Assembly (NCBI RefSeq): GCF_007827365.1
Contig: NZ_VISI01000002.1
Coordinates: forward strand, 129,001 to 193,000
DNA length: 64,000 nt
Direction: 5' to 3'
DNA from: Olleya sp. Hel_I_94
Lineage (GTDB): Bacteria; Bacteroidota; Bacteroidia; Flavobacteriales; Flavobacteriaceae
Each line of letters opens with the position of its first letter. Position 1 is the stretch's first letter. Under the pieces are notes generated by a model, which did not search any database, was not told the DNA's origin, and worked only from the letters and a program-made list of their open reading frames with translations. Shown in pieces: positions 43,024 through 60,707 of this stretch. The position numbers and the translations under genes are program-made.

Positions 43024-43068
43024 CGTAACAACTGTTACAAACCATCTCCTATATAAACTTTAAGTTTG
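43024..43068 (+). promoter_or_regulatory. GTAAC-palindrome promoter of tauE
   Basis: The operator CGTAACAACTGTTACA (43024-43039, centre 43031.5) is followed by the exact -7 box TAAGTTTG at 43061-43068. Centre to first -7 base is 29.5 bp, as at the other promoters of this set. Confidence 0.85.
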
Positions 43069-43085
43069 TATAAGATTATTAAATT

Positions 43086-43880
43086 ATGGATTTTATACAA
43101 GTAATAACATATTTAGCAGCTTTTTTAATTGGAGCAGTATTAGGACTAATTGGAGGAGGTGGATCTATTTTAACTGTTCCATTATTAGTTTATTTTTTGG
43201 CTTATAATCCAGTTATTGCTACAGCATATTCCTTGTTTGTCGTTGGCTCGTCGTCATTAGTTGGTGTTTTTCAAAAACATCGCGAGGGATTAGTAGATTT
43301 TAAAACAGGTTTGGCGTTTTCATTTCCATCATTTATTGCTGTTTATATTTCTAGACGTTTTGTAGTACCAGCAATACCAGAAACTATACTATCTATTGGC
43401 ACATTTAGTTTGACCAAGGATATGGCCATCATGATATTTTTTGCAATAATCATGTTTTTGGCAGCTTTTTCAATGATTAAAACTAAACAAAACACAAAAT
43501 CTACAGCGACCTCACAACCTTATTATAAGACATTTATGCAAGGTGTGATAATTGGTGTTATTACAGGATTAATTGGTGCAGGAGGAGGATTTTTATATGT
43601 TCCAGCACTAGTATTGTGGGCTGGATTAGACATGAAAAAAGCAGTAGGTACATCCCTAATTATAGTCGCAATAAACTCGCTAATAGGTTTTTCTGGAGAT
43701 ATGCAAACCCTAGATATTGATTGGGTATTTCTATTATCATTTACCGCTTTAACAATAATTGGTATTTTAGTAGGAGGCTATTTTTCTAAATATATTTCTA
43801 GTAAAAAACTTAAAAAAAGTTTTGGATGGTTTGTATTGGTAATGTCCATTTATATTATATTAAAAGAGCTAGTTTTTTAA
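43086..43880 (+). CDS. TauE/SafE-family anion (sulfite/thiosulfate) transporter
   Basis: A 264-residue membrane protein of about eight spans with the two inverted TauE halves: LIGAVLGLIGGGGSILTVP near the start and GVITGLIGAGGGFLYVPAL at ~155. The family exports sulfite, sulfoacetate or similar organosulfur anions, or takes up thiosulfate. Between a Crp/Fnr regulator and persulfide dioxygenase-rhodanese genes, export of sulfite made by persulfide oxidation is the likely job. Confidence 0.9.
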   Translation: MDFIQVITYLAAFLIGAVLGLIGGGGSILTVPLLVYFLAYNPVIATAYSLFVVGSSSLVGVFQKHREGLVDFKTGLAFSFPSFIAVYISRRFVVPAIPETILSIGTFSLTKDMAIMIFFAIIMFLAAFSMIKTKQNTKSTATSQPYYKTFMQGVIIGVITGLIGAGGGFLYVPALVLWAGLDMKKAVGTSLIIVAINSLIGFSGDMQTLDIDWVFLLSFTALTIIGILVGGYFSKYISSKKLKKSFGWFVLVMSIYIILKELVF

Positions 43881-43883
43881 TTA

Positions 43884-43928
43884 TGTAACTTAAGTTGCTA
43901 TAAAAATTTAAAAACATTAGTAAATTTG
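43884..43928 (+). promoter_or_regulatory. GTAAC-palindrome promoter of MBL-rhodanese 1
   Basis: TGTAACTTAAGTTGCT (43884-43899; one half-site degenerate) is followed at the 29.5-bp step by the exact -7 box TAAATTTG (43921-43928). The leader to the ATG at 44107 is about 175 nt and contains the repeats described next. Confidence 0.85.
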
Positions 43929-43950
43929 AATAATTAAATAAGATTTTTTA

Positions 43951-44110
43951 GCCTTACGGCGAATTTCGTTTAGTAAAAAAAAATAGAATTGAAAATGAAC
44001 CGAGCCATCAAGGCGAACACATTTTACCAAAATATAAAATAGAATTGAAAATGAACCGAGCCATCAAGGCGAACACATTTTACCAAAATATAAAATAGAA
44101 TTGAAAATGA
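43951..44110 (+). repeat. Structured leader with two and a partial third 56-bp direct repeats
   Basis: A hairpin GCC-TTAC-GGC followed by GAA (43951-43963) opens the leader. Then a 56-bp unit occurs twice without change (43983-44038, 44039-44094), with a third start at 44095 that runs into the gene's own ATG at 44107. Each full unit contains GCC-ATCAA-GGC-GAA and a 15-codon frame MNRAIKANTFYQNIK ending TAG (43995-44042, 44051-44098). A related element lies before the 45750 gene. Confidence 0.85.
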
Positions 44111-45522
44111 AGATAGAGCAGATTTATACAGGTTGCTTAGCACATGCAGCATATTATATAGAAAGTAATGGAGAAGCAGCAATTATCGATCCATTAAGGG
44201 AAGTGCAACCATACATTAAAAGAGCACAAAAAGACAACGCAAAAATAAAGTACATTTTTGAAACGCATTTTCATGCAGATTTTGTGTCTGGACATTTGGA
44301 TTTAAAAGAAAAAACAGGTGCTCAAATCGTATTTGGACCTACTGCTAAACCTTCTTATGATGCATTAATTGCAACAGATGGTCAAGTATTTGAAGTTGGA
44401 GACTACAAGATTAAAGCTATCCACACTCCAGGACATACAATGGAGAGTACAACATACCTTGTTATTGATCAAAATGGTAAAGAACATGGTATAGTTACAG
44501 GAGATACGCTTTTTATAGGCGATGTTGGTCGTCCTGATTTGGCACAAAAAATAGCTTCGGATTTAACACAAGAAAAACTGGCAGGTTATTTATTCGATTC
44601 ACTTCGTAATAAGATAATGCCATTAAGTGACGACTTAATAGTGTATCCTAATCATGGTGCAGGTTCTGCTTGTGGAAAAAACATGAGTAAAGAAACTACA
44701 GATACTTTAGGAAATCAGAAAAAAGTCAATTACGCTTTACGTGCAGACATGACTAAAGACGAATTTATTGCTGAATTATTAGAGGGTTTATCAGAGCCAC
44801 CAGCGTACTTTCCTCAAAACGTTATGATGAATATTAAAGGTTATGAAAGCTTTGATAAAGTAATGACTAAATCTCAAAAACCATTAACACCAAAGGCTTT
44901 TGAAGCAGCAGCTAACGAGACTGAAGCTATTGTTTTAGACGTACGTAATCAATCAGAATTTGTAAAAGGACATATTCCACGTTCTATATTTATTGGTATT
45001 GATGGTGGATTTGCTCCTTGGGTTGGTGCATTAATTGCAGATGTTAGTCAACCAATTTTATTGGTCATTCCAGAAGGAAGAGAAGAAGAGGTAATCACAC
45101 GTTTGTCACGTGTTGGATTTGATAATGTAATTGGGTATTTAGACGGTAGTTTTGAGGCTTGGAAAAGCGCAGGAATGGACTACGACACCTTAACATCAAT
45201 CTCTGCAGAAGAGTTTGCAAAACGATACGAAGACAATAAAGACGTGATTTTTGATGTTAGAAAAGATGGTGAATTTACTGCCGAACATGTCGATGGAGCT
45301 AAACATACTGCGTTAGATAATATTAATAGTCATTTAAGCGAGTTTCCAGAAGATAAACCGTTTTATATTCATTGTGCTGGTGGTTACAGATCTGTAATTG
45401 CAGCATCAATATTAAAAAGCAGAGGTATCCACAATTTAATAGATGTAGCAGGTGGTTATGGTGCCATTAAAAAAACAGATATACCAAGAACAGATTTTGT
45501 TTGTCCTACAACATTAAAATAA
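44107..45522 (+). CDS. Metallo-beta-lactamase/rhodanese fusion, persulfide dioxygenase-like (copy 1)
   Basis: The frame opens with TTG at 44101, but ATG 44107 (MKIEQIYTG) is the natural start; 471 residues. The ETHE1-like MBL domain (~1-245) has ETHFHADFVSGH (His54, His56, Asp58), HTPGHTMEST, GDTLFIGDVGRPDL and YPNHGAGSACGK, which bind a single iron in persulfide dioxygenases. Rhodanese domain 1 (~265-365) lacks the active Cys (LLVIPEGREEE where HCxxGxR is expected). Domain 2 (~372-471) has the active IHCAGGYRS. It should oxidise glutathione- or other low-molecular-weight persulfide to sulfite and move sulfane sulfur. A paralogue is at 51773. Confidence 0.93.
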   Translation: MKIEQIYTGCLAHAAYYIESNGEAAIIDPLREVQPYIKRAQKDNAKIKYIFETHFHADFVSGHLDLKEKTGAQIVFGPTAKPSYDALIATDGQVFEVGDYKIKAIHTPGHTMESTTYLVIDQNGKEHGIVTGDTLFIGDVGRPDLAQKIASDLTQEKLAGYLFDSLRNKIMPLSDDLIVYPNHGAGSACGKNMSKETTDTLGNQKKVNYALRADMTKDEFIAELLEGLSEPPAYFPQNVMMNIKGYESFDKVMTKSQKPLTPKAFEAAANETEAIVLDVRNQSEFVKGHIPRSIFIGIDGGFAPWVGALIADVSQPILLVIPEGREEEVITRLSRVGFDNVIGYLDGSFEAWKSAGMDYDTLTSISAEEFAKRYEDNKDVIFDVRKDGEFTAEHVDGAKHTALDNINSHLSEFPEDKPFYIHCAGGYRSVIAASILKSRGIHNLIDVAGGYGAIKKTDIPRTDFVCPTTLK

Positions 45523-45544
45523 TATTATAATTAATTTTATTGGT

Positions 45545-45583
45545 AAAAGCGCGTATTGCATTATTGTAATACGCGCTTTTTTT
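45545..45583 (+). terminator. Rho-independent terminator
   Basis: A 13-bp stem (AAAAGCGCGTATT / AATACGCGCTTTT) with a 10-nt loop continues into further T. It ends the MBL-rhodanese transcript; the next operator starts two bases later. Confidence 0.9.
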
Positions 45584-45584
45584 G

Positions 45585-45629
45585 TGTAACATTAGTTACC
45601 GTTTAGGTATATATATTGTGGTAACTTTA
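45585..45629 (+). promoter_or_regulatory. GTAAC-palindrome promoter of the HMA-cytochrome-trx-TPMT operon
   Basis: TGTAACATTAGTTACC (45585-45600) is followed at the 29.5-bp step by TAACTTTA (45622-45629), a one-mismatch -7 box. Confidence 0.85.
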
Positions 45630-45648
45630 TCTATTAATATAAAAGTTT

Positions 45649-45739
45649 GCCTTACGGCGAAATAGTTTTACAAAACCTCAAACTTATATTAAAAATGAAC
45701 CCAGCATTTTAGCGAACATATTTTACCAAAATTTAAAAC
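45649..45739 (+). repeat. Structured leader related to that of MBL-rhodanese 1
   Basis: GCCTTACGGCGAA (45649-45661) is identical to the hairpin at 43951. An element at 45695-45736 is a diverged copy of the 56-bp unit: it keeps ATGAACC, GCGAACA and ATTTTACCAAAAT. Its small frame is cut to five codons (MNPAF, 45695-45712). The ATG of the gene is at 45750. Confidence 0.75.
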
Positions 45740-45749
45740 AATATTATAA

Positions 45750-46019
45750 ATGAACACTTCAATAACAGTACAAAATTTAAAATGTGGTGGTTGTGCAAAC
45801 ACCATAACTACAAAATTAGCAGAACTAGAAAATATCTCAGAGATTTCAATAGATGTTGACAATAGTGTAGTAGCATTTAGTCATAATAATCAAGCGGAAG
45901 CTATAGCAGTAAAAGAACGCCTTAAAACATTAGGTTATCCATCAGTAGATGATGATAATAACTTGGTGTCCAAAGCTAAATCTTTTGTAAGTTGTGCTAC
46001 TGGCAAGCTTTCACAATAA
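45750..46019 (+). CDS. HMA-domain copper-chaperone-like protein
   Basis: An 89-residue soluble protein with the heavy-metal-associated fold. The metal loop LKCGGCANTI has both cysteines (13 and 16), in CxxC form without the usual Met before it. The tail has one more Cys (SFVSCATGKL). Proteins of this kind carry Cu(I) or other soft metals and, in sulfur gene clusters, may act as sulfur- or thiol-related carriers. First gene of a four-gene operon; the dihaem lipoprotein follows 11 bp later. Confidence 0.85.
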   Translation: MNTSITVQNLKCGGCANTITTKLAELENISEISIDVDNSVVAFSHNNQAEAIAVKERLKTLGYPSVDDDNNLVSKAKSFVSCATGKLSQ

Positions 46020-46030
46020 AAAAATAGATT

Positions 46031-47029
46031 ATGAAAAAATCCTATCTACTTATTGCTTTAAGCTTGCTTATATTGAGCTGTAATAATACCAACAATAAAA
46101 AGCTTTCTGCTTTTGATTTACAAATGGAAGCCAATAAGCATCCAGGAAAAAAGTTAATGGAAATTAACTGCTATACGTGTCATAGTCCATCTGCAAGTCA
46201 GTCGGATAGGATTGGACCACCAATGGTTGCTATTAAAAGGCATTACATTGATGAAAACACTACAAAAGCACAATTTGTAGAAAATATGCAAGCATGGATT
46301 AAAAATCCAAATGCACAAGATGCAAAAATGTTTGGAGCAGTAAAACGTTTTGGTGTTATGCCAAAACAATCATTTCCAGAAGAGACAATTGCTAAAATAG
46401 CAGATTATATGTTTGATTATAATATTGATCAACCTGACTGGTTTGAAAAGCATTATAATGAAGAAAAAGGACATGGTAAAGGGTTTGGAAAAAGCCAACA
46501 AGAAGAGACTAAGCAACAACAAACAGAAATAAACTATCATGATTTACCTTATGCGGAACGTGGCCTAAAGTATGCATTAGCAACAAAAGCGGTATTAGGA
46601 AAAAATCTAATGGGTTCTATCCAAAAAAAAGGAACTTTGGGTGCTTTAGCGTTTTGTAATGAAAAGGCCTATCCGTTAACAGATAGTATGTCAGTGGTAC
46701 ATAATGCATCTATTAAAAGGGTATCTGATAAACCAAGAAATCAAAATAATTTAGCAAATAATAAAGAATTGACGTATATTAATTCTTTTAAAAACGATAT
46801 TAAAAATAATAAAGAACCTCAACCAATAGTTGATTTATTAGACGATAAAGTACAAGTATATTATCCAATTACAACCAATGCAATGTGCTTGCAATGTCAT
46901 GGTAAACCTAATCAGGATATTGAAAAACCTACGTTAACTAGGCTTGCTAAACTATATCCTGAAGATAAAGCTACAGGTTACAATATAAATCAAGTTAGAG
47001 GTATTTGGACTGTTGTTTTTGATAATTAA
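46031..47029 (+). CDS. Dihaem c-type cytochrome lipoprotein, DUF3365-like
   Basis: A 332-residue lipoprotein (SLLILSC, Cys17). Residues ~38-125 form a cytochrome c domain with haem site CYTCH (Cys47, Cys50, His51) and GVMP as Met-ligand region. Residues ~165-330 are a Tll0287/DUF3365-type domain: AYPLTDSM, IKRVSDKPRNQNN, and a second haem site CLQCHG near the end. Such domains often serve redox sensing. Placed with thioredoxin and a thiol methyltransferase under the sulfur operator, it could move electrons in periplasmic sulfur or thiol chemistry. The exact partner is not known. Confidence 0.85.
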   Translation: MKKSYLLIALSLLILSCNNTNNKKLSAFDLQMEANKHPGKKLMEINCYTCHSPSASQSDRIGPPMVAIKRHYIDENTTKAQFVENMQAWIKNPNAQDAKMFGAVKRFGVMPKQSFPEETIAKIADYMFDYNIDQPDWFEKHYNEEKGHGKGFGKSQQEETKQQQTEINYHDLPYAERGLKYALATKAVLGKNLMGSIQKKGTLGALAFCNEKAYPLTDSMSVVHNASIKRVSDKPRNQNNLANNKELTYINSFKNDIKNNKEPQPIVDLLDDKVQVYYPITTNAMCLQCHGKPNQDIEKPTLTRLAKLYPEDKATGYNINQVRGIWTVVFDN

Positions 47030-47040
47030 ATAAAAATAAA

Positions 47041-47337
47041 ATGAGTAAATTTTCAGAAATAATTAATCAAGATTCACCTGTTTTGGTGGATTTTTATGCA
47101 GAGTGGTGTGGACCTTGTAAAACTATGAGTCCTATTTTAAAAGACGTAAAAGATAATTTAAAAGACCGTGTGTCTATTATTAAAATTGACGTAGATAAAA
47201 ATCAAGAACTAGCATCTAAATATCAAGTTAGAGGTGTGCCAACGTTATTGTTATTCAAAAAAGGTAAACAAGTTTGGAGACAATCAGGAGTGCTTCAAAA
47301 AAACGAATTAATTGATGTTATTACTGCAACGTACTAA
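47041..47337 (+). CDS. Thioredoxin
   Basis: A 98-residue thioredoxin with active site WCGPC (residues 22-26), VRGVPTLLLF (cis-Pro) and no signal peptide, so cytosolic. It reduces protein disulfides and, in sulfide-defence clusters, releases H2S from protein persulfides. Its stop overlaps the next ATG (TAATG). The chromosome probably has another main trx gene, so this one is likely specialised. Confidence 0.93.
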   Translation: MSKFSEIINQDSPVLVDFYAEWCGPCKTMSPILKDVKDNLKDRVSIIKIDVDKNQELASKYQVRGVPTLLLFKKGKQVWRQSGVLQKNELIDVITATY

Positions 47338-47918
47338 TGGACTTAAGCGCAAATTTTTGGGATAATAGATACCAATCTAATGATATTGGTTGGGATTTAG
47401 GTACTATTTCTCCACCATTAAAAGCTTATTTTGATCAGTTAACCAATTTGGATTTAAAAATTTTAATTCCTGGTGGTGGTAATAGTTATGAGGCAGAATA
47501 CCTTTTTGATAAAGGTTTTAAAAATGTATATGTAGTCGATTTATCTCAAACCGCTTTAGATAATTTAAAAAATAGAGTGCCCGATTTTCCGTCATCAAAT
47601 TTAATTTTAAATAATTTTTTTGATTTAGATCAGACGTTTGATCTAATTATAGAGCAAACTTTTTTTTGCGCAATTAATCCTAGTTTGAGAGCTGATTATG
47701 CTAAAAAAGTTTCAGAGATTTTAAATGTAGATGGTAAAGTTGCAGGGCTATTATTTGATGCAGTTTTAAATACAACACATCCTCCTTTTGGAGGCAGTAA
47801 GACAGAGTATTTAGGCTATTTTACACCCTATTTTGATATTAAGATAATGGATGCTTCGTATAACTCCATAAAGCCAAGAGCCGGAAGAGAATTGTTTTTT
47901 ATTATCCAAAAAATATAA
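47337..47918 (+). CDS. TPMT-family SAM-dependent thiol methyltransferase
   Basis: A 193-residue methyltransferase. FWDNRYQSNDIGWDLGTISP is the TPMT-family entry motif; the SAM site is ILIPGGGNSYEAEYL, then VYVVDLS. Members methylate thiols, H2S, methanethiol, selenium or thiopurines (TPMT, TmtA, MddA). With a sulfide-related operator, methylation of H2S or methanethiol as detoxification is the best guess. Last gene of the operon, translationally coupled to thioredoxin. Confidence 0.88.
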   Translation: MDLSANFWDNRYQSNDIGWDLGTISPPLKAYFDQLTNLDLKILIPGGGNSYEAEYLFDKGFKNVYVVDLSQTALDNLKNRVPDFPSSNLILNNFFDLDQTFDLIIEQTFFCAINPSLRADYAKKVSEILNVDGKVAGLLFDAVLNTTHPPFGGSKTEYLGYFTPYFDIKIMDASYNSIKPRAGRELFFIIQKI

Positions 47919-48243: not shown

Positions 48244-50346
48244 TTAAAACTTATACTGTAAAAATACTGAAAAGTTACGTCCAGATTCTGTAATAGGTGT
48301 ACGTCCAAAATCTTCTTGATTAGTAAAAGAGAAGTTTAAATGGTTATTATAAGCTTCATCTAAAGCATTAATTACAGCAACACCTAAAGTAATATTCTTA
48401 ACGGGTTTAACGCCAAAACGGATGTCTAAAGTTTGATAACCATCCGTTTCGGTTTCTCCAAAACTTCTAGAAATATTATCCTGTTTAGATACGATGTTAT
48501 ATTGTGCATTTCCCCAAAATTTTTCTTTCTGAAATCCTAAAACTAATTTGGTATTAAAAGGAGGCGTTAAAGGCAATGACTCTGCTAAATCTTTGTTTTT
48601 AGCATAGACATAAGCAAATTCAGTTTTGAAGTAATAATAGTCTAAAAAATCGATTTCAGCCATAGCTTCAAACCCCGTTTTATAAGCTTCATTTATATTT
48701 TGAAATACTTTTACATTAGTTGGGTCCGAAGTAGGATTAAACTTTCTTGTTAATGTTGGATCTATAACACCAACAATATAGTTTTCAAAAAACGAATAAT
48801 AAAAAGATGTTTCGTATTTAAAGCTATTAAATCCATTTTTTAATGGTTTTTTTCCTTTAAATCCAATTTCAAATTGATTATTTACTTCAGATTTTAAATT
48901 AGGATTTCCTACATATTCATAAGGGTCTTGACCAACAGTAAAATGGTTAATAAAACGCTCAATCATATTAGCAGATCGCACACCACGTCCATAAGCAGCT
49001 TCCAGTGTAAAATTATTGGTTACTCTTTTTTTAATTGAAATGGTTCCGCTAACATTGTGTTCCGTTCGTCTTTTTAAGTCGTATAAAGCTTCAAAATCGG
49101 CTTCTGGATCTTGTATGTCTGAAGTTACATTGTCATAACGTAAACCTGCTGTAATAATGGTTTTAGGATTAATAGAATACTTAGCTTCTGTAAAAACACC
49201 CAAATCTGTAATGTATGAATCTTGCCAAACCTTATCGTTAAACGTTATTGGAGTAGCTAACATATTCCCATTCATAATTTTAATAATTCTAGTTCTGCCA
49301 CCATCTCTAGCAACATGCATAGCATCTAAACCAGAAAATATATTTAGTTTTTCAAGCGGTTTCCAATTTAATTCTAATTTACCACCAATAGTTGTTGCAT
49401 CTACCGCAGACGACGCTTCCATCATCATAAACGACGGTCTGTTATTGTTTGTCATTAAGTGATCAACATAGCTATAATATCCTTTTGCAGTCAAAGATTT
49501 AAGGACGTTACCAATGTTATCCAATTTATAGTCTAAAGATAAAATACTGCTGTTATCAAATTCAGTATCCATTGGTAAAGCTGTATGTAGGACATCACGA
49601 CCAAAAGATTGTCTCCAATGTGCTTGTAAACGTTGGTCTTCAGTAAAATTATACCCTAATTTGATGCCGTAATCGGTACTTCTAAAGGACGAAGGGATTT
49701 CTGTTCCATTACCGTCTTCATAATTTCCAAAATCTCTGTAACCAGCATTAGCTACAATATCATATTTTTCTTGAATGTATTGTAATTGCGCTAAATTGAC
49801 TAATGACCTTCCGTTGCTTTCATAACCACCAGATACTTTTCCGTGTATGCCATAATCTTCATAATCTGGTTTTTGTGTTACTAGATTAACAACACCTCCA
49901 AATGTCGCACCATAACGCACAGTATAAGGTCCTTTTATAATTTCAATTTTAGAAATTTCTTCAGGAATAATATGTGTTGTAATGGGATCCATTCTATTTG
50001 GACAGGCATGCATCGCTTTGGTGCCACCATCATATTGGATGTTTAATTGCTCATATTGAGATGCTCTAAAAGATGGGTCTATAGCATAGTTCCCTCTTTT
50101 AATTACCGAAAACCCATTGATGTTGTTAAACAAATCAGCAACGTTTTTAGGTTGTACAATGTCTTTTTCATAATTATTAGAAACAATTGTTAATACAGGA
50201 TCTGTGTTTAATTTTCCAGTAACAATAACTTCGTCTAATTTGTGTACTTTTTGATTTGTAGTGTCTTTTTTAGTTTCGTTTTGATCTTGACTAAAAGACA
50301 TAGCTGTAATTAGCATGCATAAAAGCACGCTATATATTTTTTTCAT
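48244..50346 (-). CDS. OprC/NosA-like TonB-dependent copper receptor
   Basis: A 700-residue outer-membrane receptor with a signal peptide (ending SFSQ, ~20), a TonB-box-like KLDEVIVTG, a plug domain and a barrel ending in FLQYKF. The plug contains MHACPNRMDP (Met112, Cys115, Met119), the C-x3-M motif that binds copper in OprC of Pseudomonas; a Met-rich loop (NNNRPSFMMME) follows in the barrel. No carboxypeptidase-like SusC domain is present. I infer uptake of copper across the outer membrane. It lies 65 bp after the small Cys protein on the same strand, presumably in one operon under the GTAAC operator at 50795-50839. Confidence 0.85.
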   Translation of the reverse strand: MKKIYSVLLCMLITAMSFSQDQNETKKDTTNQKVHKLDEVIVTGKLNTDPVLTIVSNNYEKDIVQPKNVADLFNNINGFSVIKRGNYAIDPSFRASQYEQLNIQYDGGTKAMHACPNRMDPITTHIIPEEISKIEIIKGPYTVRYGATFGGVVNLVTQKPDYEDYGIHGKVSGGYESNGRSLVNLAQLQYIQEKYDIVANAGYRDFGNYEDGNGTEIPSSFRSTDYGIKLGYNFTEDQRLQAHWRQSFGRDVLHTALPMDTEFDNSSILSLDYKLDNIGNVLKSLTAKGYYSYVDHLMTNNNRPSFMMMEASSAVDATTIGGKLELNWKPLEKLNIFSGLDAMHVARDGGRTRIIKIMNGNMLATPITFNDKVWQDSYITDLGVFTEAKYSINPKTIITAGLRYDNVTSDIQDPEADFEALYDLKRRTEHNVSGTISIKKRVTNNFTLEAAYGRGVRSANMIERFINHFTVGQDPYEYVGNPNLKSEVNNQFEIGFKGKKPLKNGFNSFKYETSFYYSFFENYIVGVIDPTLTRKFNPTSDPTNVKVFQNINEAYKTGFEAMAEIDFLDYYYFKTEFAYVYAKNKDLAESLPLTPPFNTKLVLGFQKEKFWGNAQYNIVSKQDNISRSFGETETDGYQTLDIRFGVKPVKNITLGVAVINALDEAYNNHLNFSFTNQEDFGRTPITESGRNFSVFLQYKF

Positions 50347-50411
50347 TTATAGTAGTATTATATTTAACTTCTGTGTTTGGGGTAGATCAACTACCTATAC
50401 TAAAAGATAAA

Positions 50412-50789
50412 TTATACCTGTGGAGGATGGAAACAATCGTTAATACTGCTAAACGAATACAGGTTTTGGTAAATCGTAAGGTTTTGTCTTTTAATGTAGT
50501 CCTTATGATGGAAAACTATGGCGTCTAACGTTGTTGTAAATAATAAAAGCTCTTTAAAATCCACAATGTTTTCTGGTGTGTTTTGCTCTTTATCTTGCGA
50601 TTTAAAGACCTTATTTAAATGACATTTACCATTACATTGCAACTCTGGTTTGTCCTGATTGACACATAAAGCTTCTATAAAACCAATTGGGTCCAATTTA
50701 TAATACGCATAAGTTAACGATACCCTTGTGCTATTAAATAGAATAAGGCATGTTAAACATAAACTGAAAATATGTGTCATTACTTTCAT
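50412..50789 (-). CDS. Small exported Cys-motif protein paired with the copper receptor
   Basis: A frame up to 50831 exists, but the -7 box of its promoter (50802-50795) excludes that start. ATG 50789 (MKVMTHIF) is used; ATG 50780 is equally possible. About 125 residues with a signal-like hydrophobic start, then the motif ALCVNQDKPELQCNGKCHL, whose three Cys are spaced C-x10-C-x3-C, and a Phe/Tyr/His-rich tail. Small flavobacterial proteins with 'LC.N...PE..CNGKC.L' next to TonB receptors are familiar to me, but their function is unknown. Periplasmic copper binding would fit. Confidence 0.7.
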   Translation of the reverse strand: MKVMTHIFSLCLTCLILFNSTRVSLTYAYYKLDPIGFIEALCVNQDKPELQCNGKCHLNKVFKSQDKEQNTPENIVDFKELLLFTTTLDAIVFHHKDYIKRQNLTIYQNLYSFSSINDCFHPPQV

Positions 50790-50794
50790 AATAA

Positions 50795-50839
50795 CAAAGA
50801 TATCTAACCTCTTTTTTTCTGAAAGTAACATTGGTCACC
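50795..50839 (-). promoter_or_regulatory. GTAAC-palindrome promoter of the copper-receptor operon (minus)
   Basis: The operator at 50824-50839 (plus strand AGTAACATTGGTCACC, one mismatch per outer half) is centred 29.5 bp before the minus-strand -7 box TATCTTTG (50802-50795), an exact match to TAnnTTTG. Confidence 0.75.
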
Positions 50840-50902: not shown

Positions 50903-50947
50903 AGTGACAAATGTTACAAACCACTTTTGTGTTGTTCAGTAATTTTA
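50903..50947 (+). promoter_or_regulatory. GTAAC-palindrome promoter of the peroxiredoxin gene
   Basis: AGTGACAAATGTTACA (50903-50918) is followed at the 29.5-bp step by TAATTTTA (50940-50947), a one-mismatch -7 box. The divergent operator at 50824 is 79 bp away. Confidence 0.75.
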
Positions 50948-50977: not shown

Positions 50978-51700
50978 ATGAATACTTTAGAAACAACACA
51001 ACAAGAGGTTTTTGCAATGCCAAGAATTGGTGACAAAGCACCAGAATTTAAAGCAGTAACAACTCAAGGAGATATTAATTATCCATCGGATTATAAAGGA
51101 AAATGGTCTATACTATTTAGTCATCCAGCGGATTTCACACCAGTTTGCACATCTGAGTTTATGACATTTGCGCATTTAGAAGAAAAATTTGAAAAAGCAA
51201 ATTGTAGTCTTATTGGTTTGTCAATTGATGGTTTATACAGTCATATTGCTTGGTTAAGAACCATTAAAGATAAAATTGAATTTAACGGAATGAAAAACAT
51301 TGAAGTTAAGTTTCCTTTAATAGAAGACATCTCCATGGAAGTTGCTAAAAAATACGGAATGATTCAACCAGGAGAAAGTAAAACGCAAGCGGTTAGAGCA
51401 GTCTTTTTTGTAGATCCAAATGAAACTGTTAGAGCTATCATTTATTATCCATTAAGCTTAGGACGTAACTTTGATGAGCTTTACAGAGCATTAATAGCTA
51501 TGCAAACCTCAGACAAGTTTAATGTAGCTACTCCTGCAGATTGGAATCCTGGAGATGATGTTATTGTATCACCAGCAGGTTCTTGTGGTGTTGCTGAAGA
51601 AAGAATGACTTCAACAGAAGATCTAGATTGTAAAGACTGGTTTTTCTGTACTAAAAAATTAGATAAAGATTTAGTATTGGATTCAATCTTAAAAAAGTAA
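50978..51700 (+). CDS. Peroxiredoxin (Prx6-type)
   Basis: A 240-residue peroxiredoxin. The peroxidatic Cys57 lies in HPADFTPVCTSEF, the PxxxT/SxxC motif. Extra cysteines near the C-terminus (GSCGV, and CKDWFFC at about 215-222) match the long-tailed Prx6 forms in which a C-terminal Cys resolves the oxidised enzyme. It reduces H2O2, organic peroxides or peroxynitrite, and may act on persulfides. A short hairpin (51718) separates it from the second MBL-rhodanese. Confidence 0.93.
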   Translation: MNTLETTQQEVFAMPRIGDKAPEFKAVTTQGDINYPSDYKGKWSILFSHPADFTPVCTSEFMTFAHLEEKFEKANCSLIGLSIDGLYSHIAWLRTIKDKIEFNGMKNIEVKFPLIEDISMEVAKKYGMIQPGESKTQAVRAVFFVDPNETVRAIIYYPLSLGRNFDELYRALIAMQTSDKFNVATPADWNPGDDVIVSPAGSCGVAEERMTSTEDLDCKDWFFCTKKLDKDLVLDSILKK

Positions 51701-53170: not shown

Positions 53171-53214
53171 GTAATATAAGTTACACAACGTTTAAGCCTT
53201 GTGTCGTATTTTTG
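53170..53214 (+). promoter_or_regulatory. GTAAC-palindrome promoter of cydAB
   Basis: TGTAATATAAGTTACA (53170-53185) is followed at the 29.5-bp step by the exact -7 box TATTTTTG (53207-53214). The cydA ATG lies 18 bp further. Confidence 0.85.
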
Positions 53215-53232: not shown

Positions 53233-54579
53233 ATGGATACCGAAATTTTAGCCAGAATTCAATTTGCCTTCACCATTGCCTTTCATTATATCTATCCTCC
53301 ATTAAGTATTGGTATAGGTTTGATCATGGTTATTATGGAAGGACTATATCTTAAAACAGGAAATAAGCATTATGAAGTATTAACTCGCTTTTGGTTAAAA
53401 ATCTTTGCTATAACTTTTGGTATTGGTGTCGCAACTGGTATTATTATGGAGTTTGAGTTTGGTACCAATTGGGCAGTATATTCAAGATATGTTGGTGATA
53501 TTTTTGGAAGCGCTTTAGCAGCCGAAGGTTTATTTGCATTTGGGTTAGAAAGTGCCTTTTTAGGAGTTTTAATTTTTGGATGGAATCGTGTATCTCCTAG
53601 AGTACATTTTATATCTACAATTGGTGTTTTTCTTGGTTCCATGTTTTCTGCAGTTTGGATTGTAGTAGCTAACAGTTGGCAACAAACACCAGCTGGTTAT
53701 CATATAGTTGGCGAAGGATTTAATGCTAGAGCAGAAGTGACAGACTTTTGGGCAATGGTTTTTAATCCATCTAGTGTAGATAGGATTATTCATGTTTGGC
53801 AAGGCGCATTTTTAGCAGGTGCGTTTTTAGTTTTAAGTGTGCATGCTTACTATTTACTTAAAGGTCGATATGTTGAGATTTCAAAAAAAGCATTTAAAAT
53901 TGCTTTAGGTTTGGCAACTATTATATCATTAACTCAATTACTTTCAGGGCATAGTTCGGCAGATGGTGTGGCTGTAAATCAGCCAGCAAAATTAGCAGCT
54001 ATGGAAGGGCATTATGACAAATCTGCACCTGCTGATTTATACTTGTTTGGTTGGGTAAATGATAAAACGCAAGAAGTGACAGGTATTGGTATACCAGGAG
54101 GTTTGTCTTTTTTGGTACATCAAGATTTTGAAGCTCCAATTACTGGATTAAATGCTTTTCCAGAAGAGGATAGACCAGGTCAAGTAAATGCAGTGTTTCA
54201 ATTTTATCATATTATGATTTCTATAGGTATGTTTTTAATTGGATTAACATTATATGCTTCGTTTTTATGGTGGAAAGGAACATTATTTGAAAAACGATGG
54301 TTATTAAAAATCTTTGCATTTTCAGTGTTACTACCACAAATTGCAAATCAAGTCGGATGGTTTGCTGCAGAGATGGGACGACAACCATGGATTGTTTATG
54401 GGCATTTAAGAACTAATGAAGGGTTTTCGCAAGAAGTATCTTCTAATCAAATTTTATTCTCTTTAATATTATTTTTAGTAGTCTATGCTATATTGTTTTT
54501 ATTATTTATCTATTCTTTAAATAAAAAGATAAAACACGGACCATATGATGAAGCTAATAATACACTAGACATTATTTAA
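53233..54579 (+). CDS. cydA: Cytochrome bd oxidase subunit I (short Q-loop)
   Basis: A 448-residue quinol oxidase subunit with nine spans. ARIQFAFTIAFHYIYPPLSI holds haem ligand His18; FGTNWAVYSRYVGDIFGSAL and GRQPWIVYGHLRT are family signatures. The Q-loop is short, as in Bacillus-type and most Bacteroidetes enzymes. The bd oxidase has no copper, resists sulfide and NO, and so can replace cbb3 when copper is bound by sulfide. cydB follows 10 bp later. The promoter carries the GTAAC operator, not an FNR-type site. Confidence 0.96.
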   Translation: MDTEILARIQFAFTIAFHYIYPPLSIGIGLIMVIMEGLYLKTGNKHYEVLTRFWLKIFAITFGIGVATGIIMEFEFGTNWAVYSRYVGDIFGSALAAEGLFAFGLESAFLGVLIFGWNRVSPRVHFISTIGVFLGSMFSAVWIVVANSWQQTPAGYHIVGEGFNARAEVTDFWAMVFNPSSVDRIIHVWQGAFLAGAFLVLSVHAYYLLKGRYVEISKKAFKIALGLATIISLTQLLSGHSSADGVAVNQPAKLAAMEGHYDKSAPADLYLFGWVNDKTQEVTGIGIPGGLSFLVHQDFEAPITGLNAFPEEDRPGQVNAVFQFYHIMISIGMFLIGLTLYASFLWWKGTLFEKRWLLKIFAFSVLLPQIANQVGWFAAEMGRQPWIVYGHLRTNEGFSQEVSSNQILFSLILFLVVYAILFLLFIYSLNKKIKHGPYDEANNTLDII

Positions 54580-54589
54580 ACAAACACTT

Positions 54590-55627
54590 ATGGAAACAAT
54601 ATTAGGTATAGATTATCCAACACTTTGGTATTTAGTTGTCGGCTTATTATTTTCGGGTTATGCTATTTTAGAAGGGTTTGATTATGGTGCTGGTGCTTGG
54701 CACTTATTTTTAAAAAAAGACTTAAGTCGTCGTATTGCAATTAATGCTATTGGTCCATTGTGGGACGCAAATCAAGTGTGGTTAATTATTGGTGGAGGCG
54801 CCTTATTTGCAGGATTTCCTGTTATGTATGCTACTATGTTGTCGGCAATGTATATACCTTTTATGTTGTTTTTAATGCTTTTAGTGTTAAGATCTTCTGC
54901 TATAAAATTTAGAAGTGCTGAAGACATGACTTGGTGGCGAAAAACATGGGATATTATTTATTTTGTTTCCAACACGTTAATAGCTTTTTTATTAGGTGTT
55001 GTCTTAGGTAATGTTTTGCAAGGTTTTGAATTAGGAGAAAACTTGACCTATCAAGGTGGTATTTTCTTCTCATTTTTAAGTCCTTATGCTATTATGGTTG
55101 GTTTTACAACATTATCTATTTTTATGACACAAGGTGCAATTTTTTTATTACTAAAAACGGAAGGTCGTTTGCATGCTAGATTAACGTTTTTGCTAAAAAA
55201 AGGAATGATTTTCTTTATTATAAGTTTTGCAGTAACATCATTATATACTTTGACTTTTTTACACGGAGTTACAGATAAATTTAAAGAAAACCCTGTGTTT
55301 TTTGCATTACCTATTCTAGCTTTTTTAGCGGTAGCTAATGTACCTAGATTAGTGTCTCAGAAAAAATATGCTAATGCTTTAGTTTTTTCATCTTTAACTA
55401 TGGCTTTTTTATTAATGTTAGTTGCTTTTCAATTATATCCAGTATTATTACCTTCGACTATAGACCCTAAATACAGCGTAACTATATACAATGCAGCGTC
55501 TTCGCAAAAGTCACTTGGTATTATGTTAACTATTGTTGCTATTGGAGCACCATTATTAGCTGGTTATTTCTTGTTTTTATATAAAACATTTCATGGTAAA
55601 GTAAAATTGGACGATACTAGTTACTAG
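54590..55627 (+). CDS. cydB: Cytochrome bd oxidase subunit II
   Basis: A 345-residue membrane protein with about eight spans: DYPTLWYLVVGLLFSGYAIL, EGFDYGAG and GPLWDANQVWLI are conserved in CydB. Partner of CydA. The next gene has its own GTAAC promoter starting four bases after the cydB stop. Confidence 0.95.
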   Translation: METILGIDYPTLWYLVVGLLFSGYAILEGFDYGAGAWHLFLKKDLSRRIAINAIGPLWDANQVWLIIGGGALFAGFPVMYATMLSAMYIPFMLFLMLLVLRSSAIKFRSAEDMTWWRKTWDIIYFVSNTLIAFLLGVVLGNVLQGFELGENLTYQGGIFFSFLSPYAIMVGFTTLSIFMTQGAIFLLLKTEGRLHARLTFLLKKGMIFFIISFAVTSLYTLTFLHGVTDKFKENPVFFALPILAFLAVANVPRLVSQKKYANALVFSSLTMAFLLMLVAFQLYPVLLPSTIDPKYSVTIYNAASSQKSLGIMLTIVAIGAPLLAGYFLFLYKTFHGKVKLDDTSY

Positions 55628-55630
55628 TTA

Positions 55631-55675
55631 TGTAACATAAGTAGCTGTGCAGGTTTTAAGTATATAATATCTTTA
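55631..55675 (+). promoter_or_regulatory. GTAAC-palindrome promoter of the SQR-like gene
   Basis: TGTAACATAAGTAGCT (55631-55646; one half-site degenerate) is followed at the 29.5-bp step by TATCTTTA (55668-55675), a one-mismatch -7 box. Confidence 0.75.
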
Positions 55676-55692: not shown

Positions 55693-57150
55693 ATGTCTAA
55701 AATCGTCATTTTAGGAGCCGGAATTTCTGGTCATGTAGCAGCTTCTCATTTAAGAAGAAAACTATCTAAAGATCACGAAGTTATTGTGGTATCTCCTAAC
55801 AGTAATTACCAATGGATTCCTTCCAATATTTGGGTTGGAATTGGTAGAATGAAATCAAAAAAAATCTTATTCCCATTAGCACCTTTATACAAAAAGAAAG
55901 GAATAGGTTATAAACAAGCTAAAGCAATTTCGTTTTTTCCTGAAGGCGATAAAAATGAGGATAAACCATATGTTTTATCAGAGTATGTCGCAGGAGCTAA
56001 TAAAGGTCAACAAGAAAAAATAACTTACGATTATTTAATTAATGCTACTGGACCAAAATTAAATTTTGAAGCGACAGAAGGCTTAATTCCTGGACAAAAT
56101 AAAACCTATTCTGTTTGTACTTATACACATGCTGACCATGCTTGGGAAGGTTTAAATGAAGTTATTCAGCAAATGAAAGCTGGTAAAAAAGCTAAAATAT
56201 TGATTGGTACAGGACACGCCAAATCAACTTGCCAAGGTGCTGCGTTTGAGTATATTTTAAATGTAGAACAGGAGTTGCGTAAGCACAATGTACGCGATAT
56301 GGCAGAAGTCACTTGGATTTCTAACGAATACCAATTAGGCGATTTTGGGATGGATGGTATGTTGTTAAGCTACGGAAGCATGACCATGAAATCTCATGAA
56401 ATGGTCGAAATGATTTTTGAAGATAGAGACATCAAGTGGATATTAGGAGCAGGTGTTAATAAAATTGAAGATGGTATTGCCCATTATGAAAACTTGGAAG
56501 GAGAATATAAGACTGAAACTTATGATTTTGCAATGTTAATTCCATCATTTTCTGGTCATGGTTTTAAAGCTTTTGATAAAAATGAAAATGACATCACAGA
56601 AAAACTATTTAAAGGGTTTATGATTGTAGATGCCGATTATACAACAAAACCATACGAAGAATGGTCTGTAAAAGATTGGCCAGAAACGTATCAAAACCCA
56701 AGTTATAAAAATATTTTTGCTCCAGGAATTGCATTTGCGCCTCCACACGCCATTTCTAAGCCAAGAACTAGCAAAAACGGAACGGTTATTTCGCCAGCAC
56801 CTCCACGTACAGGTATGCCCTCTGGTATTACTGCCAAATTGGTCGCAGATAATATTATTGACTCTATTAAAAGTGGATCAGAGTCATTACATCACAAGGG
56901 AAGTTTAGGTAATATGGGAGCAGCATGTATTGCTTCTGCTGGTTACGGGATGACAAAGGGAAGTGGTGTTAGTATTACCACGTTTCCTATTGTTCCTGAC
57001 TACGAAAAATATCCAAAAACACAAGGTAGGCAATTAGGTAAAACTTTTGGAGAAATTGGGTTAGCAGGACATTGGTTAAAACTAGCATTGCACTATGCGT
57101 TTATCTATAAAGCAAAAATGAAACCTTTTTGGTGGTTGATTCCAGAATAA
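55693..57150 (+). CDS. Sulfide:quinone oxidoreductase-like flavoprotein
   Basis: A 485-residue FAD enzyme. The N-terminal dinucleotide motif is VILGAGISGHVAASHL (5-20); TGPKLNFEATEG marks the FAD contact. The SQR-type catalytic Cys180 lies in STCQGAAFEY, with further Cys142 and Cys412 (MGAACIASAG), so the three-cysteine set of SQR is possible. The C-terminal ~60 residues are amphipathic, giving membrane association. It oxidises sulfide to sulfane sulfur and feeds electrons to the quinone pool, from which CydAB can draw. It follows cydAB but has a separate promoter. The exact SQR type was not determined. Confidence 0.9.
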   Translation: MSKIVILGAGISGHVAASHLRRKLSKDHEVIVVSPNSNYQWIPSNIWVGIGRMKSKKILFPLAPLYKKKGIGYKQAKAISFFPEGDKNEDKPYVLSEYVAGANKGQQEKITYDYLINATGPKLNFEATEGLIPGQNKTYSVCTYTHADHAWEGLNEVIQQMKAGKKAKILIGTGHAKSTCQGAAFEYILNVEQELRKHNVRDMAEVTWISNEYQLGDFGMDGMLLSYGSMTMKSHEMVEMIFEDRDIKWILGAGVNKIEDGIAHYENLEGEYKTETYDFAMLIPSFSGHGFKAFDKNENDITEKLFKGFMIVDADYTTKPYEEWSVKDWPETYQNPSYKNIFAPGIAFAPPHAISKPRTSKNGTVISPAPPRTGMPSGITAKLVADNIIDSIKSGSESLHHKGSLGNMGAACIASAGYGMTKGSGVSITTFPIVPDYEKYPKTQGRQLGKTFGEIGLAGHWLKLALHYAFIYKAKMKPFWWLIPE

Positions 57151-58013: not shown

Positions 58014-58072
58014 AGTTGGACTATTTTTTAATAAATTAGACTTCGATTTATCTAACCATCTGCAGTATTACT

Positions 58073-59470
58073 TTAGTTTTTATGTTTGTTAATTAGATCA
58101 TTTCGTTCCTTTTTAAGTTGACTACTTAATCCAATTTTATAGGTATGCGGATTTTGAAAACGTTTATATTCATCCGGGAGTTGAGCTAAACGCGATTGCG
58201 AATATTTAGCAATTTCGTTAACCGTTCTTACAGGTATTACACGCTTACCATCCTCCATTACTAGCTCTAATAATGGCTCTTTTTTTAACGCCTTAATATT
58301 TATTTGTTTGGTTACATCAAAAGGGTGTTCCATTTGATCAATCTCACCTTCGGTATAAATCGCGACAGCATCTGCGCCATAAAATTGTCCATCGTTATCA
58401 ATCATGCGATACACTTGTTTTTTAAACGGTAGTGATACTTTTATAATGTTTTCAGAGAGTTTAATTCTTGGATCACCATTGTATTCAGATAATTTATATA
58501 CACCATCTAACGCAGCGTCTGGTCGTCCTGTAACCAAATTAGTACCTACACCAAAAACGTCAATAGGTGCCTGTTGTTCTTTTAAACTTTTTATAACAAA
58601 TTCGTCTAACTGATTAGAGACTACAATTTTTACATAACTTAAATTTGCAGCGTCTAAAATGGCTCTCGCTTTTTTAGATAAATAGGCTAAATCACCACTG
58701 TCCAATCGGATTCCAAAAAGTTTCTCACCTTTTTCTTCCATTTCTTTGGCAACTGTAATCGCATTTGGAAGTCCTAATTTTAGAGTATTATAAGTATCAA
58801 TTAAAAGCACACAGTTTTTAGGTCGTACTTGCGCAAAATCACGAAATGCGTCTAATTCATTATCATAACTTTGGATAAACGAATGTGCCATTGTTCCTGT
58901 AGATGCGATGTTGTAATCTTCCGCAGCTTTCACATTACTAGTACTATCAAAACCACCAATAGCCGCAGCTCTAGACGCATAATAACCACCTGTAGCATGT
59001 GCACGACGTAATCCCATATCTAATAAAATGGCATCTTTTGCACTATAGCGTATTCTGCTAGCTTTGGTTGCAATTAAGGTTTGAAAATTAAGAATATTTA
59101 GTAAAAGGGTTTCTATAATTTGTGCTTCTATAATATTTGCTTCAACTTGTAAAATGGGACGATTAGGAAAAACAACATCGCCTTCTTTACTAGAACGAAT
59201 ACTTCCTTTAAAGCTAAAGTTTTTTAAATACTCTAAAAATTCGTTCTCAAATCCTTTTTGCTTTAAATAAGAAATATCAGACTCTGAGAATTTAAGCGAC
59301 TCCAATATATCTAAAACATCTTCCAATCCTGCAAATATGGCATACCCATTATCAAAAGGATTACGACGGTAATAATAGTCAAATACAGCTTTACCATTTG
59401 GTTTAGTAACAAAATAGACTTGCGCCATTGTAATTTGATATAGATCCGTATATGCTGCAGTAATGTCCAT
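58073..59470 (-). CDS. pncB: Nicotinate phosphoribosyltransferase PncB
   Basis: A 465-residue enzyme that makes nicotinate mononucleotide from nicotinate and PRPP. DLYQITMAQVYF and YYRRNPFDNGYAIFAGL mark the N-terminus, GLRRAHATGGYYASRAA and FGIRLDSGDLAYLSKKAR the phosphate and PRPP sites, and FGVGTNLVT the base site. It acts just after PncA in NAD salvage. Presumably one transcript with pncA. Confidence 0.94.
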   Translation of the reverse strand: MDITAAYTDLYQITMAQVYFVTKPNGKAVFDYYYRRNPFDNGYAIFAGLEDVLDILESLKFSESDISYLKQKGFENEFLEYLKNFSFKGSIRSSKEGDVVFPNRPILQVEANIIEAQIIETLLLNILNFQTLIATKASRIRYSAKDAILLDMGLRRAHATGGYYASRAAAIGGFDSTSNVKAAEDYNIASTGTMAHSFIQSYDNELDAFRDFAQVRPKNCVLLIDTYNTLKLGLPNAITVAKEMEEKGEKLFGIRLDSGDLAYLSKKARAILDAANLSYVKIVVSNQLDEFVIKSLKEQQAPIDVFGVGTNLVTGRPDAALDGVYKLSEYNGDPRIKLSENIIKVSLPFKKQVYRMIDNDGQFYGADAVAIYTEGEIDQMEHPFDVTKQINIKALKKEPLLELVMEDGKRVIPVRTVNEIAKYSQSRLAQLPDEYKRFQNPHTYKIGLSSQLKKERNDLINKHKN

Positions 59471-59594
59471 AAATTTATAAGTTTAGTTTACAAGATATTC
59501 AAAATTTGAAAGATTTCCATTCTCAAATTCTAAAGAAATTAATAGTATTTAATAATTAGTCTAGTTGAAATTAAATAGTGGTTTTAAACCGAAA

Positions 59595-60593
59595 TTAATT
59601 CCCTTTCACACGTTGCCAAAGTTCTGATAACAGCTTTTTACCGTCATTAGAATCTTTTGGAGCTTCAATAAATGAAACTTTACCAGAAGGATCAACGTCT
59701 AATTTGTATTTAAAAACAAAACTGTCTGATTTTGGTTTTAAACTTAATAATCCAAAACGTAAATCGTTAAAATAAAGGGTGTTTTCTGTTTTAGTAATTG
59801 TGTACCAACCTTCCGTAATGGTAATCATTTGCTTTACACTTTTATCTTCAACAAGACTACCTAGTAAGTCGTGGTTTTTTGGATAGCTTTCAAAAGTGAT
59901 AGGTTGGCTGTCAAAAAACGAATAATTCCCCAATAAATAAGCATCATCAGTTTGCACATTAGCACTCCAAAGTATCGTGTTTAATGCAGATGGTCTAGTG
60001 TCAATATCTAAATAAGCAATGTTTTGTTCTTTTAAAGCAGATTCAAATTTTGTGTAAGCTGCCCATTTTAAAAGTAGCGTAATGGCTAAGTACGATGTAC
60101 TTATAATCAAACCCATGTTATTATAAAAACGTCGTTTTGCAGTGGTCCGTTTTTGACGCATCGCTAAAATTAAAAATATCAGAAAAGGGACTGTGTACAA
60201 AGGGTCAACTACAAATATGTTTTTAAAAGCTAACCGTAAATCAAAAGGCCAAAACAGTTGTGTTCCCCAAGTGGTGTGTGCATCTAATATAGGATGAGTT
60301 ACAAAAGCTAAAAAGAATAGCCAAGTCCAGTTTTTAAAGTTTTTATAGGTTTCGTAACGCGTGACAATCCAAGCTAAAATAGGTGCAAAAAGTACTGAAA
60401 ACACAATAGAATGCGTAAACCCACGATGTACATAAAGTGCTGTAACATTGTCCGTGAAAAAAGAGGCTAAAACATCTAAATCAGGAATTGTACCTGCGAT
60501 AGCACCATAAAGCATGGCCTTGTTTCCAACTTTTCTTCCTAAAACAGCTTCTCCTACAGCTGCTCCTAATACTATTTGTGTTAATGAATCCAT
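59595..60593 (-). CDS. Membrane metal-dependent hydrolase, YdjM/DUF457 family
   Basis: A 332-residue membrane protein with four to five spans and the family histidines: MDSLTQIVLGAAVGEA, GTIPDLDVL, HRGFTHS and THPILDAHTTWG. The C-terminal ~130 residues form a soluble domain. The family is annotated as inner-membrane metal-dependent hydrolases with no known substrate. It is divergent from the efflux operon at 60724. Confidence 0.85.
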   Translation of the reverse strand: MDSLTQIVLGAAVGEAVLGRKVGNKAMLYGAIAGTIPDLDVLASFFTDNVTALYVHRGFTHSIVFSVLFAPILAWIVTRYETYKNFKNWTWLFFLAFVTHPILDAHTTWGTQLFWPFDLRLAFKNIFVVDPLYTVPFLIFLILAMRQKRTTAKRRFYNNMGLIISTSYLAITLLLKWAAYTKFESALKEQNIAYLDIDTRPSALNTILWSANVQTDDAYLLGNYSFFDSQPITFESYPKNHDLLGSLVEDKSVKQMITITEGWYTITKTENTLYFNDLRFGLLSLKPKSDSFVFKYKLDVDPSGKVSFIEAPKDSNDGKKLLSELWQRVKGN

Positions 60594-60662
60594 ATAACAT
60601 GCAAAAGTAAGAGATACTAATTTATTTATAACAAGACTTCGGTTTTATGTTGTTTTTTACTT

Positions 60663-60707
60663 GGTAACTTATGTTACCGACCAAGCTATTTATGTAATGT
60701 ACATTTG
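60663..60707 (+). promoter_or_regulatory. GTAAC-palindrome promoter of the RND efflux operon
   Basis: GGTAACTTATGTTACC (60663-60678), a perfect 6-bp inverted repeat, is followed at the 29.5-bp step by the exact -7 box TACATTTG (60700-60707). The ATG is 17 bp further. Confidence 0.85.

Follow-up and report, generated by a model that had tools for sequence, protein, structure and literature searches.

The window analysed here, a 64,000-nucleotide stretch of the genome of Olleya sp. Hel_I_94 (G000:C2:129001-193000), contains eight promoters in which a palindromic operator, GTAAC-N4-GTTAC, precedes a TAnnTTTG/A -7 box at a constant distance, and it encodes a Crp/Fnr-family protein, here called P0001, which is the likely regulator of these sites. 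Our main conclusion, to which we assign a probability of roughly 0.7, is that P0001 is a class II Crp/Fnr activator which switches on the disposal of sulfide, persulfide and sulfite, most likely by reactive sulfur acting on its cysteines. The sites, their geometry and conservation, the covariation of operator and regulator, and the families of the target genes can be read directly in the sequences. From these we infer binding and activation by P0001, the nature of the signal and the role of the cysteines. P0001 would bind GTAAC-N4-GTTAC centred at -41.5 and recruit sigma-A RNA polymerase to a promoter with a TAnnTTTG -7 box and a spacer without a conserved -33 element, i. e. by class II activation. 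By this it would turn on the oxidation and disposal of sulfide, persulfide and sulfite through a metallo-beta-lactamase (MBL)-rhodanese protein, a flavoprotein resembling sulfide:quinone oxidoreductase (SQR) and TauE, to which its relatives would add YeeE, SulP and sulfite-oxidase-type enzymes. It would also turn on thiol repair and, in Olleya sp. Hel_I_94, a cytochrome bd oxidase and a metal receptor. The switch would most likely be reactive sulfur on Cys77 together with Cys83/Cys84, which lie in the loop corresponding to the cyclic AMP-binding loop of CRP.

The genome (3.56 Mb, two contigs) was scanned with the composite pattern GTAACNNNNGTTAC-N22-TANNTTTR, that is, the 14-bp operator, 22 bp and the TAnnTTTG/A box. 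The eight promoters described in an earlier note on this DNA were all read in the sequence and recovered by the scan. In 8/8 pairs the gap is 22 bp, and the operator centre lies 29.5 bp from the first base of the box, as the earlier note had stated. Three composites in the window are exact, five have one mismatch and two have two mismatches; 40 dinucleotide shuffles of the window only, summed, gave 0, 2 and 18, respectively. At up to one mismatch the window thus holds 8 composites, including a ninth site absent from the earlier list, against a mean of 0.05 per shuffled window. The operator alone, at the same threshold, occurs 9 times against a shuffle mean of 2.5. This is weaker evidence, and the case rests on the spacing. 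A chance resemblance among these promoters could draw on this roughly 3.6-fold excess, but it is hardly conceivable given the counts for the fixed-spacing composite and the recurrence of the spacing in relatives. The claims that the spacing is beyond chance and that the pair is not equally frequent in shuffled sequence therefore hold.

Genome-wide, 11 composites with up to one mismatch were found, 8 of them within 36.6 kb, in the window; the reversed control pattern gave 2. Outside the window, the three composites stand before genes of the DUF983, fatty-acid-hydroxylase and Thioredoxin_9 families. One exact composite has a gap of 21 bp instead (G000:C2:1997206) and lies before a small protein without a Pfam match and an AcrB-family resistance-nodulation-division (RND) gene, which means that the spacing is near-fixed, not absolutely fixed. 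Of the 17 exact operators in this genome, 15 were inspected: 5 fall within open frames, and several lack a box. Hence the regulon is not defined by the operator alone.

The same geometry was found in related genomes. From 113 confirmed flavobacterial loci centred on orthologs, the best 80 (968,637 bp) were taken; they contain 292 exact operators over both strands, i. e. 146 palindromes. The box follows at gap 22 in 118/146 and at gap 21 in 13/146, and any other gap between 5 and 59 is seen 0-5 times. These counts are not independent because the genomes are related. Of 198 operators, 166 were kept after a 75%-identity filter and aligned; TAnTTTTG at the box position was the sole other strong signal, and no -33 element was seen in the spacer across the 166. 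Gap 22 was present in 122/166, a biased rate, since the box had been part of the query for some of the regions. The scan of genome and related flavobacteria proposed in the earlier note bears out its idea of one regulon with a fixed promoter geometry. A study on F. psychrophilum places the sigma-A box TAnnTTTG at -12 to -5 (PMC9723704). With the box at this position here as well, the operator centre would fall at -41.5. This is the class II position for CRP/FNR activators, and the site geometry, with starts predicted from the F. psychrophilum mapping, appears to match a class II activator near -41.5.

By its sequence P0001 is a Crp/Fnr protein: PF00027 (37.9 bits) and PF13545 (34.9 bits) both score above cut-off, and the predicted secondary structure agrees. 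Its recognition helix, TSRVVISRLL, has Val in place of CRP Glu181. Val occupies this position in 80/81 aligned ortholog rows, the remaining row being a gap; the nearest ortholog, from Olleya marilimosa, is 97% identical. The genome has five Crp/Fnr helix-turn-helix matches, three above and two below the Pfam cut-off; the four other than P0001 have Glu at this position. In the report of Rodionov and colleagues (PMC1274295), CRP positions 180/181 are tied to operator bases and the GTAAC motif of HcpR2 to Pro181.

Among 146 Flavobacteriales genomes, P0001 relatives were found in 92 and the composite in 55; 53 of these 55 are among the 92, and many of the 54 relative-free genomes are small. In 69 genomes the best P0001 relative was read, and composites with up to one mismatch were compared with the reversed pattern. 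The 27 genomes with an S-R-V regulator contain 113 composites versus 21 for the control, at least one in each (27/27). The 34 genomes of the x-R-E type contain 36 versus 27, with at least one in 24/34 (Mann-Whitney p = 2e-7 between the types, relatedness uncorrected).

The MBL-rhodanese gene, present in 97/146 genomes, permits a comparison at orthologous promoters. Eighty such promoters from genomes with a read regulator (not every copy included) were scored for their best gap-22 site (up to two mismatches), operator bases 3 and 12 being ignored in the choice. With S-R-V regulators these bases were A..T in 10 promoters, A..C in 2, G..A in 1 and G..C in 1 (no site in 17), with S-R-E regulators A..T in 0, A..C in 12, G..C in 7 and G..T in 1 (none in 10). 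The remaining types gave G..C 2 and none 3 (T-R-E), A..A 4, A..G 1, G..C 1 and none 5 (A-R-V), none 2 (A-R-E) and A..C 1 (V-R-V). A..T sites thus make up 10/14 for S-R-V versus 0/20 for S-R-E (Fisher p = 7.6e-6, relatedness uncorrected), 10/14 versus 0/15 at up to one mismatch outside the scored bases, and they occur in 7/10 S-R-V genera with a site and in 0/5 S-R-E genera. Within one genus, the Val genomes G052 and G144 carry GTTAC, and a third Val genome (G114) and the second G144 copy have no site; the 13 sites in Glu genomes of this genus end in GTCAC (11) or ATCAC (2), never in GTTAC. Overall, Glu-type genomes mostly show GTAAC-N4-GTCAC at the orthologous promoters with unchanged spacing. 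That the base changes with the residue, in front of an orthologous gene and at constant spacing, is the best evidence that the P0001 family binds these sites. This covariation, and the status of P0001 as the sole non-Glu Crp/Fnr protein of its genome, support the assignment of the sites to P0001 made in the earlier note.

The idea that Glu-type regulators use a symmetric GTGAC composite proved only partly right, as the hybrid A..C form accounts for 12/20 MBL sites, G..C for 7 and G..T for 1. In the genome of the window itself, a c-type cytochrome gene is preceded by a GTGAC-N4-GTCAC operator that is perfect and is followed after 22 bp by a TATTTTTG box (L039:1501-1544); perhaps this is the site of a Glu-type Crp/Fnr protein with the same class II spacing.

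Two other assignments have to be considered. The sites could be bound by another Crp/Fnr protein, chiefly the FNR-like protein encoded at 23429-24163 (P0002), with oxygen as the signal. The weak ninth site precedes its gene, and FNR often controls bd and cbb3 oxidases. However, this protein has Glu at the specificity position (TE..IR), for which the variable position would be expected to hold a different base (PMC1274295), and in a survey that covered P0001 orthologs the operator sequence covaries with these. We consider this reading quite unlikely. The ninth operator was found by the genome scan between the FNR-like gene (minus strand) and a cluster for a CcoI-type ATPase and a cbb3 oxidase. 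Its weak -7 box points to the FNR-like gene, so that a link between two Crp/Fnr circuits is possible; the FNR-like gene was never matched as first gene downstream of any composite examined in relatives.

The other assignment, named as the main rival in the earlier note, is an HcpR-type regulon with the HcpR2 motif and genes that answer nitrosative stress. It was rightly raised, since the motif GTAACnnnnGTTAC is the HcpR2 consensus published in PMC1274295, yet HcpR fails in the features tested. A PF03063 search found no hcp gene in the genome. The same source gives HcpR2 Pro at 181, versus Val in P0001, and the three hcp-adjacent regulators that were read have RPSLAR (Pro at 181) and lack the loop cysteines; hcp scored above cut-off in 4/197 genomes, with a regulator neighbour in three and none found for the fourth. 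In the tree P0001 groups apart from the hcp-adjacent regulators (50-row clade 100/99, 9-row clade 100/98; long branches flagged). No first gene related to nitric oxide was matched, and the Pfam families listed (25 of 46) include none either. With hcp absent, Val at residue 181, a separate clade and the loop cysteines, we rejected an HcpR identity of P0001 and regard such a regulon as very unlikely.

The targets in relatives were taken from two sets: 155 composites in the 80 loci, and 89 composites from 20 genomes whose ortholog is of the S-R-V type (80 stretches). In the first set, in which neighbouring genes are favoured since the loci are centred near the regulator, the first genes were MBL-rhodanese (56), TauE (35), cytochrome c/Tll0287 (10), TolC (7), SQR-like (5), peroxiredoxin (4), HMA (3), CydA (2) and the regulator (1), with 28 unmatched and 4 without an open reading frame (ORF). 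The second set gave MBL-rhodanese/rhodanese (19), TolC (10), SQR-like (4), TauE (3), HMA (2), cytochrome c (2), CydA (1) and peroxiredoxin (1), with 40 unmatched and 7 without an ORF. Part of the unmatched first genes will be chance sites. A Pfam run on 47 unmatched proteins (39/40 from the second set, 8/28 from the first) yielded, among the 25 of 46 families listed, DUF983 (6), SulP (5), Thioredoxin_9 (4), YeeE-type Sulf_transp (4), rhodanese (3), sulfite-oxidase-type molybdoenzyme (2) and NrfD (2). Hence MBL-rhodanese and TauE are foremost among the recurring targets, followed by TolC, SQR-like, YeeE, SulP and rhodaneses, together with thioredoxins and DUF983.

The earlier note had joined all genes behind the sites into one programme. 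For the sulfur-oxidation core, which recurs, this stands. It is weaker for the other members, as CydA is first after 2+1 and peroxiredoxin after 4+1 of the 155+89 composites, and the copper-receptor-like gene and the small gene before it after 0 of 244; this operon was matched only here. The programme is thus better described as a recurring sulfur core with species-level additions. These additions bear on a further alternative, in which P0001 acts with the same geometry but in response to copper or the respiratory redox state. CydAB, the copper-receptor-like protein, the HMA protein and efflux genes all follow sites in this species, and DUF983 is a frequent target in relatives. The most recurrent targets, however, are those of the sulfur core, and the receptor operon was not matched in relatives. 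A copper or redox signal is unlikely in our judgement. A sulfide response would explain the presence of CydAB, since bd oxidases tolerate sulfide, and of metal uptake, since sulfide precipitates copper.

We return to reactive sulfur, which is probably the signal and is probably read by Cys77, Cys83 and Cys84. These are the only three cysteines of P0001, and their loop aligns with the ligand-binding region of CRP. All three are present in 80/81 aligned orthologs (the remaining row is a gap); in the wider set Cys77 occurs in 69/69 regulators, Cys83 in 53/69 and Cys84 in 33/69. The predicted structure (predicted local distance difference test 82.4, predicted template modelling score 0.61, 22-sequence alignment) has the Crp element order. 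A more far-reaching idea, which we put forward as tentative, is that the clade is a Crp/Fnr lineage whose cyclic-nucleotide pocket has turned into a switch made of cysteines, Cys77 with Cys83/84, for the direct sensing of persulfide. It might then be an activator-type reactive-sulfur sensor of Flavobacteriales, in which a one-residue Val/Glu specificity switch moved the operators at the same promoters.

Several observations weigh against P0001 as a cysteine-based regulator of these sites. Chance would account for about one fifth of the composites with up to one mismatch (21 control versus 113). The seven A-R-V genomes contain 2 composites, both in G127, versus 6 for the control, and the single V-R-V genome 1 versus 1, so GTAAC sites are not predicted by Val alone. 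Of the 11 A-R-V MBL promoters, 4 show GTAAC-N4-GTAGC, the gap being unchanged and the box one base off, and among the 14 sites in S-R-V genomes 4 differ from A..T. No site lies just upstream of 17/31 S-R-V and 10/30 S-R-E MBL-rhodanese genes; perhaps these are not first in their operons. As to the sensor, 3/27 S-R-V regulators have Cys77 without Cys83 and Cys84, and the predicted structure of P0001 is least certain at residues 71-90, around the cysteines. A pure code in which R-V gives GTAAC was dropped as too simple, given the few composites and the degenerate GTAAC-N4-GTAGC sites of A-R-V genomes.

The features of the window are collected in Table 1.

Table 1. Regulator, operator/-7 box pairs and genes in the window (mismatches refer to the composite pattern)
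Feature	Position	Strand	Remarks
Crp/Fnr-family regulator P0001, 210 aa	42390..43022	+	Pfam PF00027, PF13545
Operator 1 GTAACAACTGTTAC	43025..43038	+	-7 box TAAGTTTG 43061-43068; 0 mismatches; 5' of TauE
Operator 2 GTAACTTAAGTTGC	43885..43898	+	-7 box TAAATTTG 43921-43928; 1 mismatch
Operator 3 GTAACATTAGTTAC	45586..45599	+	-7 box TAACTTTA 45622-45629; 0 mismatches
Operator 4 GTGACCAATGTTAC	50825..50838	-	-7 box TATCTTTG 50802-50795, minus strand; composite from 50838, 1 mismatch
Operator 5 GTGACAAATGTTAC	50904..50917	+	-7 box TAATTTTA 50940-50947; 1 mismatch
Operator 6 GTAATATAAGTTAC	53171..53184	+	-7 box TATTTTTG 53207-53214; 1 mismatch
Operator 7 GTAACATAAGTAGC	55632..55645	+	-7 box TATCTTTA 55668-55675; 2 mismatches, both inside operator; SQR-like
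Operator 8 GTAACTTATGTTAC	60664..60677	+	-7 box TACATTTG 60700-60707; 0 mismatches
Ninth site, weak	24184..24197	-	box GATATTTG; 1 mismatch; precedes FNR-like gene 23429-24163 (minus)
TauE/SafE sulfite-exporter family	43086..43880	+	PF01925, 1.8e-44
56-nt tandem leader repeat of MBL-rhodanese gene	43995..44106	+	each unit can encode MNRAIKANTFYQNIK and a stop
MBL-rhodanese protein	44107..45522	+	PF00753, PF00581; ATG at 44107
Presumed operon, HMA protein first	45750..47918	+	Pfam
c-type cytochrome/Tll0287-like, HMA operon	46031-47029	+	Pfam
Thioredoxin, HMA operon	47041-47337	+	sequence reading
TPMT-family methyltransferase, HMA operon	47337-47918	+	Pfam
Small protein without Pfam match and TonB-dependent receptor	48244..50789	-	Pfam, NCBIfam
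TonB-dependent receptor	48244-50346	-	248 bits, below 472-bit cut-off of TIGR01778 copper receptor
Peroxiredoxin	50978..51700	+	Pfam, NCBIfam
Second MBL-rhodanese	51773-53119	+	follows peroxiredoxin
Cytochrome bd oxidase CydA, CydB	53233..55627	+	PF01654, PF02322
SQR-like flavoprotein	55693..57150	+	solved SQRs 3hyv (1.3e-32), 3sz0
TolC-type outer membrane protein	60727-62034	+	PF02321
Membrane-fusion protein	62146-63222	+	PF16576
RND-pump-like frame, runs past window end	63395-64000	+	sequence reading only

The first MBL-rhodanese protein has the solved relatives 3tp9 (9e-73), 3r2u (5e-55) and ETHE1 4chl (2e-10), and is a probable persulfide dioxygenase-rhodanese. Two gene names of the earlier note rest on similarity. 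The name SQR is backed by the matches to solved SQR structures (E 1e-32), but at 54.8 bits the protein remains under the NCBIfam SQR cut-off of 525; the copper receptor shows similarity to TIGR01778 without reaching its cut-off. The start listed for the small-protein ORF (50412-50831) falls within operator 4. Its start is probably the ATG at 50789, 5 nt past the -7 box, or at 50780, not 50831, and the transcript would then be leaderless or nearly so. A terminator-like hairpin at 51718-51738 separates the peroxiredoxin gene from the second MBL-rhodanese gene, which may therefore be off the peroxiredoxin transcript. Between the first MBL-rhodanese gene and operator 3, a 16-nt inverted repeat with a T-run (45545-45580) resembles an intrinsic terminator. 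A degenerate copy of the leader repeat precedes the HMA gene (45695-45749). The core 21-mer of the repeat occurs in the genome only in these copies, at three places, at up to two mismatches and, at up to three, in 6/80 ortholog loci (L041, L042, L043, L051, L052, L060); the L042 copies differ from those of the window at three third-codon positions only, all synonymous. The repeat may add post-transcriptional control to this regulon as a second layer.

If P0001 acts as proposed, flavobacteria, which are major marine heterotrophs, would have one master switch for disposing of sulfide and persulfide. The operator at -41.5 with TAnnTTTG would be a readable promoter code that predicts targets in related genomes, and one residue and one base pair that shift together at one promoter would provide a natural test of protein-DNA recognition. 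Our literature search, whose coverage mostly left out subscription literature, returned no paper on Bacteroidota in which sulfide or persulfide genes are linked to a Crp/Fnr protein.

P0001 shares with HcpR2, the Crp/Fnr regulator of hcp, the operator consensus, the fold and a non-Glu residue at CRP 181 (PMC1274295). It differs in having Val instead of Pro, in the three loop cysteines, the separate clade, the absence of hcp and the sulfur-centred regulon. Unlike FNR, it has no N-terminal cysteine cluster for a 4Fe-4S centre, its cysteines being confined to the loop, and Val instead of Glu at the 181 equivalent. With NtcA, the cyanobacterial Crp/Fnr activator, it shares R-V at the same helix positions in the alignment; the operator also fits the NtcA site, GTA-N8-TAC, and its class II geometry. 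In contrast to NtcA, P0001 scores 48.8 bits versus the NCBIfam cut-off of 244.95, and its targets are sulfur and not nitrogen genes. The closest solved sequence is the Crp/Fnr protein 3dv8 (E 8e-21), presumably from Eubacterium rectale, which has cysteines at the Cys77 and Cys83 positions but an H-R-E type helix. To our knowledge, the reactive-sulfur regulators (CstR, SqrR/BigR, FisR and others) are not Crp/Fnr proteins. CstR is of the CsoR type and FisR is sigma-54-dependent; the targets of CstR, SqrR/BigR and FisR overlap those of P0001 in SQR, persulfide dioxygenase, rhodanese and TauE. SqrR is described in PMC9774590 as an ArsR-family protein that senses by two cysteines. As a Crp/Fnr protein, P0001 would differ from SqrR, CstR and FisR alike in the kind of regulator that controls such genes.

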